A stretch of 64,000 nt of DNA from Paraburkholderia aromaticivorans (GTDB taxonomy: Bacteria > Pseudomonadota > Gammaproteobacteria > Burkholderiales > Burkholderiaceae), in contig NZ_CP051515.1 in the NCBI RefSeq assembly GCF_012689525.1, positions 496,001 through 560,000 of the forward strand, given 5' to 3'. A program made the translations under genes and the position numbers. Under the pieces are notes generated by a model. That model was not told where the DNA came from and searched no databases. It saw only the letters and a list, made by a program, of their open reading frames with translations. This document shows, piece by piece, positions 18,834-25,410 of the stretch; the stretch's first letter is position 1; the number at the start of each line of letters is the position of its first letter.

Positions 18834-20477
18834 ATGCAGGACACCGTACACAGCGCGGCGCCATCCGCCTATGCTTATCCGTTGCTGATCAAGAACCTGC
18901 TGCACACGCCGTTCGCTCAGGCGCCGAATCAGGAAATCGTCTACCGCGATCAGCTGCGGATGACCTACAGCCAGTTGCAGGAACGGATCGCGCGGCTCGC
19001 CAACGGTCTCGACGGACTGGGCGTGCGCTACGGCAGCACGGTCGCGGTGATGGACTGGGACAGTCATCGCTATCTGGAGAGCTACTTCGCCGTGCCGATG
19101 ATGGGCGCCGTGTTGCAGACCGTCAACGTGCGGCTGTCGCCGGCGGAGATCGTCTACACGATCAATCACGCGCGCGCCGAAGTGCTGTTCGTTCACGCCG
19201 ATTTCCTGCCCGTCGTCGAAGCGATCAAAGATCAACTCGAAACGGTACGCACCTTCGTGCGGATCGAAGAGCCGGACAGCGAGGCGTGCGAGCACACCAT
19301 TCCGTTCGCGACGGAATACGAAGCGATGCTGGCGGCGAGCGCCACGCACTACGACTTTCCCGACTTCGACGAAAACACCCGTGCCACCACGTTCTATACG
19401 ACGGGCACGACCGGTCTGCCCAAGGGCGTGTACTTCTCGCATCGTCAACTGGTCCTGCACACCATCACGCTGATGGCGGCGCTCGCAAGCCCGGTGTCGG
19501 GGCAGCGCTTTCATCGCGGCGATGTCTATATGCCGCTGACGCCGATGTTCCATGTGCACGCATGGGGCATGCCGTACATCGCGACGGTGCTGGGCGTGAA
19601 GCAGGTCTATCCGGGCCGCTATGTGCCCGAGCGACTGGTAAAGCTGATGCGCGACGAGGGCGTCACGTTCTCGCATTGCGTCAGCACGATTCTGCACATG
19701 GTGCTGAACTGCCCGGAGTCGAAGTCCTCGGATTTCAGCAAATGGAAAGTCGTGATCGGCGGAAGCGCGCTGCCGCACGGCATCGCCCATGCCGCATTGG
19801 AACGCGGCATTGACGTGTTCACCGGCTATGGCATGTCCGAGACCGGCCCTGTCCTGAGTCTCGCGCAGCTTCCGCCGGGGTATGAACAACTCGACACCGA
19901 AGAGCAGGTGCGCCTGCGCTGCAAAACTGGCCTGGCGGTTCCGCTCGTCGATCTGCGGATCGTCGACGAATCGATGAAGGACGTCGTTCACGACGGCAGG
20001 GCCTATGGCGAGATTGTCGCGCGCGCCCCGTGGCTGACTCAGGGTTACTTCGGCAACCCTGAAGCGTCGGAACAACTTTGGGCGGGCGGCTACCTGCATA
20101 CGCAGGACATCGCGAACATCGACACGACCGGCAATCTGCAGATCACCGACCGCATCAAGGACGTCATCAAGTCCGGCGGCGAGTGGGTCTCGTCGCTGGA
20201 GATCGAAAGCCTGATCTCGCTGCACCCCGGCGTCTCGGAAGTCGCCGTGATCGGCATCAAGGACGAGAAGTGGGGCGAAAGGCCCGTGGCGCTGGTGGTG
20301 CTCAAGGCAGACGCCGTCGTCACCGAGGACGACATCAAACAGCACGTTCTCAAATTCAGCCACACCGGGCAGATCTCGAAGTACGCGGTGCCTCAGGTCG
20401 TCAAATTCATCGACGCGCTGGAGAAGACGAGCGTCGGCAAGATGAACAAGAAGTGGCTGCGCGAGCAGTTCGCCTAA
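18834..20477 (+). CDS. AlkK-like medium/long-chain fatty acyl-CoA ligase
   Basis: A 547-residue ANL ligase. The P-loop reads FYTTGTTGLPKGVYFSHRQL, then MFHVHAWGMPY, GYGMSETGPVLSLA, and the hinge ITDRIKDVIKSGGEWVSS; the terminal Lys is in KTSVGKMNKKWLRE. The pattern DVIKSGGEWVSSLEIE is that of AlkK-type fatty-acid CoA ligases from alkane-using pseudomonads. It starts at 18834 after GAGGAG; the 94-codon upstream extension is rejected. As first gene of the PHA operon it would supply CoA esters of medium-chain acids for beta-oxidation and polymer synthesis. Confidence 0.9.
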   Translation: MQDTVHSAAPSAYAYPLLIKNLLHTPFAQAPNQEIVYRDQLRMTYSQLQERIARLANGLDGLGVRYGSTVAVMDWDSHRYLESYFAVPMMGAVLQTVNVRLSPAEIVYTINHARAEVLFVHADFLPVVEAIKDQLETVRTFVRIEEPDSEACEHTIPFATEYEAMLAASATHYDFPDFDENTRATTFYTTGTTGLPKGVYFSHRQLVLHTITLMAALASPVSGQRFHRGDVYMPLTPMFHVHAWGMPYIATVLGVKQVYPGRYVPERLVKLMRDEGVTFSHCVSTILHMVLNCPESKSSDFSKWKVVIGGSALPHGIAHAALERGIDVFTGYGMSETGPVLSLAQLPPGYEQLDTEEQVRLRCKTGLAVPLVDLRIVDESMKDVVHDGRAYGEIVARAPWLTQGYFGNPEASEQLWAGGYLHTQDIANIDTTGNLQITDRIKDVIKSGGEWVSSLEIESLISLHPGVSEVAVIGIKDEKWGERPVALVVLKADAVVTEDDIKQHVLKFSHTGQISKYAVPQVVKFIDALEKTSVGKMNKKWLREQFA

Positions 20478-20499
20478 CCGGTCACGAGGAGCAAGCACG

Positions 20500-23281: not shown

Positions 23282-24124
23282 ATGATCGATATGCAATCCA
23301 CTCCCGCGTCTGTCGCCGGCATGCAAATCCAGATGGTCGAAGTCAACGGCCAGGTGTTGCGTGTCGCGACGCGGCAGGGCAGCGACGCGTCGCCGCCGCT
23401 GCTCATTTTCAATGGCATCGGCGCCAACCTCGAATTGGTGGAGCCGTTCGTCGCTGCGCTCGAGGACGTGAGCGTCATCATTTTCGACGTTCCCGGCGTG
23501 GGCGGCTCGCCCGCGCCCGTCGTGCCGTATCGCTTCTCGACACTGTCCGTGCTGAGCGAGCGGCTGCTATCGCGGCTCGGCTACGACGGGCCCGTCGACG
23601 TGCTCGGCGTTTCGTGGGGCGGCGCGCTTGCGCAGCAGTTCGCGCGTCTCTATCCGGCGCGTTGCCGTCGGCTGATTCTCGCGGCGACCTCGCCGGGCGT
23701 CATCATGGTGCCGGCGAAACTGTCGGTGCTGTCGAAGCTGATCGGACCGCGCCGCTATACCGATCCGGCCTATCTTCAGGAAGTGGGCGCGGAAATCTAC
23801 GGCGGTGCGTACCGGCGGGATCCGTCGTTGCTGCGGAACCACGCGCGGCACATTCAGGCGCCCCGCGGCCGCGGCTACCTCTACCAGTTGCTGGCCGCAG
23901 CGGGCTGGACCAGCTTGCCCTGGCTCGGCGCATTGCGCCAGACGACGCTCGTGATGCACGGCAACGACGATCCCATCGTCCCGCTGACCAACGCGAAGAT
24001 TCTCGCCGCCCGCATCCCGCACGCGACGCTCTATGTGATCGACGACGGCCACCTGTTCCTCATCACGCGCGCCAAGGACGTCGCTCCCGTGATACGCCGG
24101 TTTCTGCGGCAGGAGGCGGGTTGA
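23282..24124 (+). CDS. phaZ: Intracellular mcl-PHA depolymerase, PhaZ type
   Basis: A 280-residue alpha/beta hydrolase. The nucleophile is Ser111 in GVSWGG, followed by ALAQQFARLYPARCRRLIL and ATSPG; the acid and histidine are in GNDDPIVPL and DDGHLFLITRA. This series of motifs is that of the Pseudomonas intracellular depolymerase PhaZ, found between the two synthase genes there, and differs from the short-chain PhaZ of Cupriavidus. It releases (R)-3-hydroxyacids from granules. Its presence strongly supports medium-chain polymer as the product. The stop overlaps the next start by 4 nt. Confidence 0.92.
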   Translation: MIDMQSTPASVAGMQIQMVEVNGQVLRVATRQGSDASPPLLIFNGIGANLELVEPFVAALEDVSVIIFDVPGVGGSPAPVVPYRFSTLSVLSERLLSRLGYDGPVDVLGVSWGGALAQQFARLYPARCRRLILAATSPGVIMVPAKLSVLSKLIGPRRYTDPAYLQEVGAEIYGGAYRRDPSLLRNHARHIQAPRGRGYLYQLLAAAGWTSLPWLGALRQTTLVMHGNDDPIVPLTNAKILAARIPHATLYVIDDGHLFLITRAKDVAPVIRRFLRQEAG

Positions 24125-25410
24125 GTGCCGTCGCGAATGACGACGAAGGTGCGCGGCCTGCCACGGCCGTTGCGCCCGAGTACCTGAAAGCGCTGCGCCT
24201 GAAGCGGATGCGGCGAACCGCGACGGGTTTGCTCGCGGTGCTGATCGCGCTGCTGCTCCTGTCCGTCGTGTGGCAGGGCGAGTATCCGTGGCTGGCATGG
24301 CTGCGCGCGTTTGCGGAAGCGGGCACGGTCGGCGCGATCGCGGACTGGTATGCCGTCGTCGCGTTGTTCCGGCGTCCGTTCGGTCTGCCGGTTCCGCATA
24401 CGGCCATCATTCCGCAGAACCAGCAGCGGATCGCCGAGAGTCTCGGCAACTTCGTCGAAGAGAATTTCCTGACGCCCGAGCTCATCATCGGCAGGCTGAG
24501 CGGCCACAACGCCGCGCGGGCGCTGGCGCAGTGGCTCGCCGTGCCGGACAACAGCCGGGCGATCGCCGATGTCGTCGCGGATTCGCTGCCGGGATTGCTG
24601 AACGGGATAGACGAAGCGGACGTCGAGCGCTTTTTCGAACGTCTGGTGATACCGCAATTGCGTGCGCTCGATGTGTCCCGTGCGGCCGGCAGCGTGCTGA
24701 AAGTGCTGACGGAAGGCGGCCGGCATCAGCCGCTGCTGGACCACGGGTTAGAGGCGCTGGAGAAGTGGCTGACGGCCAACGTGGACATGATCAAGGCCAG
24801 ATTCAGCGCGGCCTCGCGATACACGCCCGTGCCGCTCGACGCGTATATCGTCAGAAAATTCGTCGAAGGCATCATCGCGCTGCTTCATGACGTGGCGGCA
24901 GATCCCGATCACGAGCTTCGTCATCAGTTCGACGACGCGGTGCAGGACCTGATCGTTCAGTTGCAGACCTCGGTGGTGCATCGCCGCGTCGGCAAATCAT
25001 TGCTGCGCGACTGCATTCGCTACTTCAGGAATGGGGACTCGTATCGCGTGCTGCTCGACTACGTGTGCACCCGCGTGAGCGCCGATCTCGCGCACGAGCA
25101 TTCGGCGCTGCGCGGCGCGCTGGCGGGCATGCTGGTGTCGCTCGCGAGAGGCGTGGGCAGCGAGCCCGCGATTCAGCACAAGCTGAACGCCTGGTGGCTC
25201 GCGCTGGCTCACGAACTGGTCGTGCGTTATCGGCGCGAACTGTCGGCGCTGATCACCGAGGTCGTGAAAAGCTGGAACGCGGATGAAGTGAGCGGGAAGA
25301 TCGAAGCGGAAATCGGCCGCGATCTGCAATACATCCGGATCAACGGCACGTTCGTGGGCGGCACGGTCGGCGTGCTGCTCCATGCGGTCGCACTCGTGGT
25401 CGCGCGGTGA
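24121..25410 (+). CDS. DUF445 family membrane protein
   Basis: A 429-residue protein of the DUF445 (YjiN-like) family. A hydrophobic segment covers about residues 32-48 (LLAVLIALLLLSVVW), followed by AFAEAGTVGAIADWYAVVALFRRPFGLPVPHTAIIP, here recognised by its AIADWYAVVALF core, a long helical middle, and a hydrophobic C-terminal segment (TVGVLLHAVALVV). A TTG start at 24121 is inferred: it overlaps the phaZ stop as TTGA, has AGGAGG just upstream, and no in-frame ATG or GTG fits. The overlap implies translational coupling with phaZ. Function is unknown; anchoring or membrane partitioning of granules is only a guess. Confidence 0.8.
   Translation: MSAVANDDEGARPATAVAPEYLKALRLKRMRRTATGLLAVLIALLLLSVVWQGEYPWLAWLRAFAEAGTVGAIADWYAVVALFRRPFGLPVPHTAIIPQNQQRIAESLGNFVEENFLTPELIIGRLSGHNAARALAQWLAVPDNSRAIADVVADSLPGLLNGIDEADVERFFERLVIPQLRALDVSRAAGSVLKVLTEGGRHQPLLDHGLEALEKWLTANVDMIKARFSAASRYTPVPLDAYIVRKFVEGIIALLHDVAADPDHELRHQFDDAVQDLIVQLQTSVVHRRVGKSLLRDCIRYFRNGDSYRVLLDYVCTRVSADLAHEHSALRGALAGMLVSLARGVGSEPAIQHKLNAWWLALAHELVVRYRRELSALITEVVKSWNADEVSGKIEAEIGRDLQYIRINGTFVGGTVGVLLHAVALVVAR

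Follow-up and report, generated by a model that had tools for sequence, protein, structure and literature searches.

The question raised by positions 18,834 to 25,410 of a 64,000-nucleotide stretch of Paraburkholderia aromaticivorans DNA (NCBI RefSeq assembly GCF_012689525.1, contig NZ_CP051515.1, positions 496,001 to 560,000; the whole stretch is hereafter the window) is whether the six genes found there form a Pseudomonas-style medium-chain polyhydroxyalkanoate (PHA) operon, as a sequence-only reading had proposed, and what would switch them on. We propose that the genes are probably a fatty-acid-derived PHA cassette under a MalT/AlkS-type activator, in one regulon with the adjacent beta-oxidation operon. 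By descent the earlier description is half right; as a statement about chemistry it is unproven.

All six genes lie on the plus strand with short spacers, in the places where they had been reported, and profile matches give the families that had been named. The first encodes an AMP-forming acyl-CoA ligase of 547 aa (18834-20477; PF00501/PF13193; PRK06187 at 642.5 bits against a cut-off of 476), whose closest solved structure is an acyl-ACP synthetase (PDB 8hsy, 662 bits). It is followed by a MaoC-type enoyl-CoA hydratase of 154 aa (20500-20964; PF01575), closest in structure to Rv0130 (2c2i), in which residues 40-46 read GDKQWIH, which we take to be the Asp/His hydratase motif of R-specific enoyl-CoA hydratases; domain and motif together point to the role of PhaJ. 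The PHA synthase PhaC (21012-22727; 571 aa; PF07167 and PF00561) comes next, then a phasin of the Phasin_2/TIGR01841 type (22800-23219; 139 aa; PF09361; TIGR01841 at 37.9 bits against 30.2) and the depolymerase PhaZ (23282-24124; 280 aa), which has a GVSWG box with Ser111 and scores 333.5 bits against the TIGR02240 cut-off of 250.6, in keeping with the intracellular medium-chain type previously assigned to it. No other protein in the genome (10.84 Mb, 4 contigs) exceeds that cut-off. The last gene encodes a DUF445 protein (about 24121-25410, the start codon being approximate; PF04286 at 324.8 bits against 33.8). The cassette is not a chance arrangement, because it is conserved across dozens of genomes. 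Nor is it unusual for the Burkholderiales, as had been thought: a PhaC of at least 74% identity is present in 44 of 144 genomes of the genus, where next-best matches reach about 42% or lower, and a match at E 1e-150 or better in 71 of 398 genomes of the family sample.

The locus had also been called self-contained, a description that its flanks contradict. Only 41 nt past DUF445, just beyond the region covered by the sequence-only reading, ends a convergent gene for a MalT-type LuxR-family regulator (25452-28187, minus strand; about 911 aa, taking Met 94 of a 1004-aa open frame as the start). Its ATP-binding, TPR_MalT and C-terminal GerE domains place it among the LAL (large ATP-binding regulators of the LuxR family) proteins, the ATPase domain matching PF13401 exactly at the cut-off (27.0) with a Walker-like APAGFGKTS present. 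Its closest solved structure is MalT (8bob), and it falls below the NCBIfam MalT cut-off (379 vs 537). Among 28 named Paraburkholderia/Caballeronia loci (27 genome contigs and one plasmid, counted below only where enough flank was available), 18 have a counterpart in the same position, at 58% identity or more. Across the genus, with a threshold of E 1e-200 or better and at most five candidates scored per genome, the regulator is found in 40 of the 44 PhaC-positive genomes and in 3 of the 100 PhaC-negative ones (Fisher p 2e-27, kinship not corrected). Regulator and PhaC share a contig within 8 kb in 37 of these 40, always with the regulator downstream and convergent, and lie on different contigs in the remaining three; five genus genomes have a second regulator copy.

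The regulator is accompanied by an inverted repeat, CTCCCCNNTTCRGGGGRTR, which we regard as its candidate operator. One copy, CTCCCCCGTTCAGGGGATG (18699-18717, plus strand), stands about 117 nt upstream of the ligase start, and a second, CTCCCCTGTACGGGGGATA, with one mismatch (28246-28264, plus strand), lies in the space between the regulator gene and an acyl-CoA dehydrogenase gene, which diverge from it. When the 400 bases before the ligase were aligned for 18 regulator-bearing sequences, the window included, a single block stood out as strongly conserved; in the window it reads CTCCCCCGTTCAGGGGATG. With up to two mismatches the 19-base pattern matches the window twice, against 0.04 expected from shuffles, and its 15-base core has a single occurrence in the genome's 10.84 Mb, the reversed control having none. 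The loose 19-mer alone is not specific, because at two mismatches the whole genome holds three sites against two for the reversed control. The genus as a whole contains 67 exact cores in 52 of 144 genomes, against 10 hits for the reversed control, and 36 of 46 PhaC copies have one before the cassette, on the upstream side at a distance of 2292-2411 bases from PhaC. A second PhaC copy in genome G134 has no repeat before it; in G062 the second copy is at a contig end, where presence of the repeat could not be judged.

A repeat precedes the cassette in all 40 regulator-positive genomes (35 with the exact core, four at one mismatch to the 19-mer and one, G055, at three mismatches that amount to one missing base) and in one of the four regulator-negative genomes (Fisher p 3e-4); the other three have none there within three mismatches. 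G143, in which a remnant of 26% of the regulator's length persists, has no pre-cassette repeat within three mismatches. The second site, not used in building the motif, recurs within three mismatches at 12 of the 18 named loci in which the 5′ end of the regulator gene is complete; of these 12, six have one mismatch, one has two and five have three. A mononucleotide shuffle of 1.37 Mb of loci gave no sites at zero or one mismatch, seven at two and 46 at three, which corresponds to a chance expectation of about 0.2 sites in the roughly 6 kb covered. At locus L041 of Caballeronia udeis, two additional exact cores are seen at 187-201 and 806-820, some 5 kb before the cassette, and are possibly other targets of the regulator.

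Divergent from the regulator, on the plus strand, lies a gene group (28434-39218; operon structure assumed from gene order) that encodes, in turn, an acyl-CoA dehydrogenase, a DUF5938 protein, an SCP-x-like thiolase, a ligase, EtfB, EtfA, a second acyl-CoA dehydrogenase, OmpW and a short-chain dehydrogenase/reductase. At L029, L030, L031 and L043 the regulator is likewise flanked by the first two of these genes, and at L142 and L143 by the first four. From its content this is a beta-oxidation-like kit for some acid, perhaps a hydrophobic one.

Our model for the locus is as follows. The ligase would activate fatty acids, or re-activate 3-hydroxyacids freed by PhaZ, and acyl-CoA dehydrogenases, some of them from the adjacent operon, would convert the products to 2-enoyl-CoA. 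The MaoC hydratase would hydrate these to (R)-3-hydroxyacyl-CoA for polymerisation by PhaC, the phasin would coat the resulting granule, and PhaZ would mobilise the stored polymer. The genes, the phylogeny, the residue signature and the linkage of regulator and repeat are observed; enzyme activities, monomers, binding, activation and inducer are predicted. The regulator would bind at the ligase repeat. In many relatives it would bind a further one that precedes its own gene and the beta-oxidation operon, so that storage and catabolism would be switched on together. More broadly, we lean towards the view that across Paraburkholderia/Caballeronia one regulon comprises the PHA cassette of the class II branch and a beta-oxidation operon, joined by an activator of the LAL (MalT/AlkS) type and its dedicated inverted-repeat operator, perhaps with a synthase for short/medium-chain copolymer. 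If so, a single sensor would switch both polymer storage and the degradation of an acyl substrate, and the locus would constitute a ready-made inducible cassette. PHA control rests with PhaD/PhaF in Pseudomonas and with PhaR in class I producers, and the circuit proposed here would be distinct from both.

Several observations weigh against this model. The repeat was derived from loci in which it was also counted, and species overlap between the collections. Only 36 of the 67 exact genus cores precede a cassette, so the core is not confined to that position; in G143 and G074 cores are present at other sites and absent before the cassette. Genome G084 keeps the pre-cassette repeat with no regulator match, as do loci L045 and L047 with no regulator nearby (L047 and G084 are apparently the same genome). 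Six of the 18 loci lack the second site, and 5 of the 12 sites found carry three mismatches; at L143 regulator and operon are present with no repeat within three mismatches. Finally, genomes G113 and G114 possess the regulator and the catabolic operon and no cassette, the former with a two-mismatch site and the latter with none within three mismatches; since both are kept without the cassette, control of just the catabolic operon may be the regulator's primary role. These exceptions could be taken to mean that the regulator serves only the adjacent operon, that its proximity to the cassette is positional and that something else binds the repeat before the ligase, a reading for which G113 and G114, the orphan repeat of G084 and the exact cores found elsewhere in the genus all speak. 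It would leave unexplained why the pre-cassette repeat follows the regulator so closely (40/40 vs 1/4) and why a similar repeat precedes the regulator gene at 12 of 18 loci, and we consider it unlikely. We retain the common regulon of cassette and catabolic operon as the best reading.

The synthase itself shows the features expected of class II: a PhaC_N domain with an alpha/beta fold, a GxCxG box and the triad C308/D463/H491, which lies exactly 12 residues past the C296/D451/H479 given in the sections of PMC4636328 consulted, just as the sequence-only reading had calculated. Its position was examined in a tree of 69 sequences: just three of class III, from genomes of the phylum, and 66 drawn from the 128 PhaC proteins extracted from loci; most Pseudomonas copies were omitted, one short row was dropped and class IV was not included. 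Support of 100/100 unites the window PhaC with Pseudomonas class II in a clade of 58 rows, from which class I, group D and class III stand apart; membership of class I is thereby rejected. Inside this clade the Pseudomonas rows and two from a single Paucimonas metagenome-assembled genome (MAG) form one group (100/98). The window PhaC belongs to its sister branch (98/89), which also holds Paraburkholderia, Caballeronia and Cupriavidus proteins, two MAGs each of Rhodocyclaceae and Eremiobacterota, one Acetobacteraceae MAG and, as deepest member, a Bradyrhizobium plasmid copy. Several long branches were flagged by the program (L108, L110, L111 and L112 among them). The protein scores 762.1 bits with the NCBIfam class II model TIGR01839, below its cut-off of 855.4 and between a Pseudomonas PhaC1 (1028.8) and a Cupriavidus relative (717.5), and 516.8 bits with the class I model. 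By sequence, then, this PhaC is a member of the class II clade outside the Pseudomonas branch. Two entries of the tree deserve mention: L106, a Paucimonas MAG whose PhaC1 and PhaC2 are of Pseudomonas type and fall inside that genus's clade, for which a binning error or transfer is possible, and L111, a Phyllobacterium plasmid (pT1293c) on which a class II-clade PhaC accompanies PhaZ, an acetoacetate-CoA ligase and a DUF5938 gene of the same family as the window gene at 29743-30858.

Residues were surveyed in 124 PhaC sequences over 400 aa. Leucine is the most conserved residue at class II position 484 in the parts of PMC4636328 drawn on here; the window PhaC has isoleucine at the equivalent position (Ile496), and Ile or Val occurs in 29/29 Paraburkholderia/Caballeronia and 9/9 Cupriavidus sequences, against Leu in 67/69 from Pseudomonas. 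The active-site box ends with residue 311, which is Ala in all 38 Paraburkholderia, Caballeronia and Cupriavidus proteins and Gly in 69/69 from Pseudomonas. The 325-equivalent is Ala in 29/29 Paraburkholderia/Caballeronia sequences, and Ser in 7/9 Cupriavidus and 68/69 Pseudomonas sequences.

PMC4636328 reports that PhaC2 of Cupriavidus pinatubonensis JMP134, grouped with class II and carrying Ile at 484, accepts 3-hydroxybutyryl-CoA (3HB-CoA), not 3-hydroxyoctanoyl-CoA (3HO-CoA), and makes short-chain polymer only; its kinship to our Cupriavidus rows is assumed from description (genus, gene order and the reported Ile) and not from alignment. Because this enzyme, placed near ours on those grounds, makes short-chain polymer only, a medium-chain product is unproven, and its earlier assertion was an extrapolation. 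A true medium-chain system, in which PhaC takes mainly C6-C12 monomers as the Pseudomonas class II enzymes do, would fit the class II clade, the TIGR02240 kind of depolymerase and a ligase nearest to fatty-acid activators. It would also fit the T. caryophylli enzymes, assigned to group C, for which the portions of PMC8231600 used here report polymer of 3-hydroxyhexanoate, 3-hydroxyoctanoate and 3-hydroxydecanoate (3HHx/3HO/3HD), a medium-chain result that also counts against our own preference. The kinship of these enzymes calls for caution, because strain AS 1.2741 has the order phaC1-phaZ-phaC2 (PMC8231600, same portions), and among the surveyed loci a second PhaC is found nearby only in Pseudomonas and one Paucimonas MAG. 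Three residues depart from Pseudomonas (the 484-equivalent being Ile, the 325-equivalent Ala, and 311 Ala in place of Gly), and the JMP134 enzyme used 3HB-CoA but no 3HO-CoA; we think it improbable that the product is of this kind.

A stronger contender, though one to which we give rather less than an even chance, is a short-chain enzyme like JMP134 PhaC2 that makes poly(3-hydroxybutyrate) from C4 intermediates and is regulated differently from the main phaCAB operon. The Ile/Val and Ala311 signature and the wider branch are common to the Cupriavidus proteins, and the JMP134 result itself is in its favour. That result reaches our locus through genus, gene order and a reported Ile and not through an aligned sequence, however; the 325-equivalent is Ala throughout Paraburkholderia/Caballeronia where Cupriavidus mostly has Ser, and the former mostly have a ligase where the latter have an acyl-CoA dehydrogenase. 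We judge that short-chain or mixed short/medium-chain monomers are more likely for this PhaC than the medium-chain only of Pseudomonas. A PhaC of the class II clade should not automatically be labelled medium-chain, and if our reading is correct the locus makes it possible to test how synthases of the class II branch altered their monomer range.

The survey of relatives for this gene order, which the sequence-only reading had suggested, was carried out. Upstream of PhaC in Paraburkholderia/Caballeronia, MaoC is present at 27/27 loci and the ligase at 24/27; downstream, PhaP is present at 20/27, PhaZ at 26/27 and DUF445 at 14/27. The full order ligase-MaoC-PhaC-PhaP-PhaZ is shared by 19 of 26 loci, and extends to DUF445 in 13. 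Calling the cassette separately assembled leaves out of account that Caballeronia and one Rhodocyclaceae MAG (L065) have the ligase order too, as does a Bradyrhizobium plasmid (L108), though lacking the phasin. A recent foreign insertion was rejected, the cassette's G+C of 0.625-0.651 lying inside the window range of 0.567-0.662, the window having yielded no tRNA and the gene order being widely shared. At L034 (Paraburkholderia sp. CNPSo 3274) the regulator directly follows PhaC, and PhaP, PhaZ and DUF445 were not found, an arrangement resembling a natural deletion; in genome G033 everything from MaoC through most of DUF445 is missing, with ligase, repeat and regulator retained.

Within the genome as a whole there are seven PhaC_N matches, one in the cassette and six elsewhere. 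One of the seven genes has an in-frame stop (L002, G000:C1:1554100-1555692), and two class I copies on separate contigs (L005, G000:C1:82010-85510; L006, G000:C3:1969195-1972695) differ chiefly in the N-terminal part, their translations beyond it looking identical by eye. The earlier statement that PhaD and PhaF homologues are lacking needs qualification: PF05597, the Phasin family, which we take to represent PhaF/PhaI-type phasins, has no match in the whole genome in a search run without a Pseudomonas positive control, whereas PhaD was not searched for and a TetR gene of unproven relation to PhaD is present at 12495-13196. Nearby, a single open frame at 13245-15389 fuses FAD-binding monooxygenase-like (PF01494) and alpha/beta hydrolase (PF07859) domains. 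A terminator or attenuator between phaC and phaP was considered and dropped: a short stem is visible, clearly kept, as judged by eye, only at L028 among 12 relatives whose spacers were compared, and the terminator scanner found none there. No Rfam family matched across 17000-29000, and a sigma-70 promoter scan of 17000-25800 returned a single minus-strand site where 1.4 were expected. Nothing relevant tying DUF445 to polyhydroxyalkanoate was found in the open-licence PMC literature.

Compared with known systems, the cassette is close in description to the group C clusters of Burkholderia sensu lato, and is thus of a known kind, because a 2021 review (PMC8231600, in the parts used here) already describes under that name a class II-like PhaC with phaZ, phaP and maoC nearby. 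The window cassette belongs to that group when set against the review's description rather than its sequences. The main text of that review, in the same parts, does not mention a ligase, LuxR, MalT or DUF, whereas the window locus has a ligase, the regulator and DUF445. A LAL regulator of PHA was not met with in the open-licence PMC literature searched, including portions of the reviews PMC7204398 and PMC9049629; within that literature, the operon is of a published kind while the regulator and operator appear new. The JMP134 cluster fadE-phaJ-phaC2-phaP-phaZ, as given in part of PMC4636328, resembles ours in its single class II-type PhaC with Ile at 484 and in PhaJ, PhaP and PhaZ. It has FadE where the window has the ligase, the layout of most Cupriavidus loci, which have an acyl-CoA dehydrogenase upstream in 7/9 cases and a ligase in 1/9; DUF445 is present in only 1/7 of them, and the regulator in only 1/9, at L051, which also has the ligase.

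With the Pseudomonas pha locus the window shares the class II clade and a same-family PhaZ after PhaC (37/37 Pseudomonas loci with enough flank). It differs, as had been asserted, in gene order: window-type MaoC and ligase occur at 0/36 Pseudomonas loci and window-type phasin and DUF445 at 0/37. Furthermore, two phaC genes flank phaZ in Pseudomonas, with phaD-phaF-phaI following phaC1-phaZ-phaC2, and the window cassette has one PhaC. The regulator, finally, resembles the AlkS/MalT LAL proteins (described in parts of PMC8784404 and PMC9628970) in its length of about 900 aa and its ATPase, MalT TPR and GerE domains. AlkS, a LuxR/MalT-family activator, is reported to act on inverted repeats that lie at the promoter it targets and at its own (PMC8784404, in part), and a layout of the same kind, by description rather than alignment, is predicted from sequence here, with one repeat before the target operon and another before the regulator gene, the latter seen in 12 of 18 relatives; what this layout would govern in Paraburkholderia is a PHA cassette.

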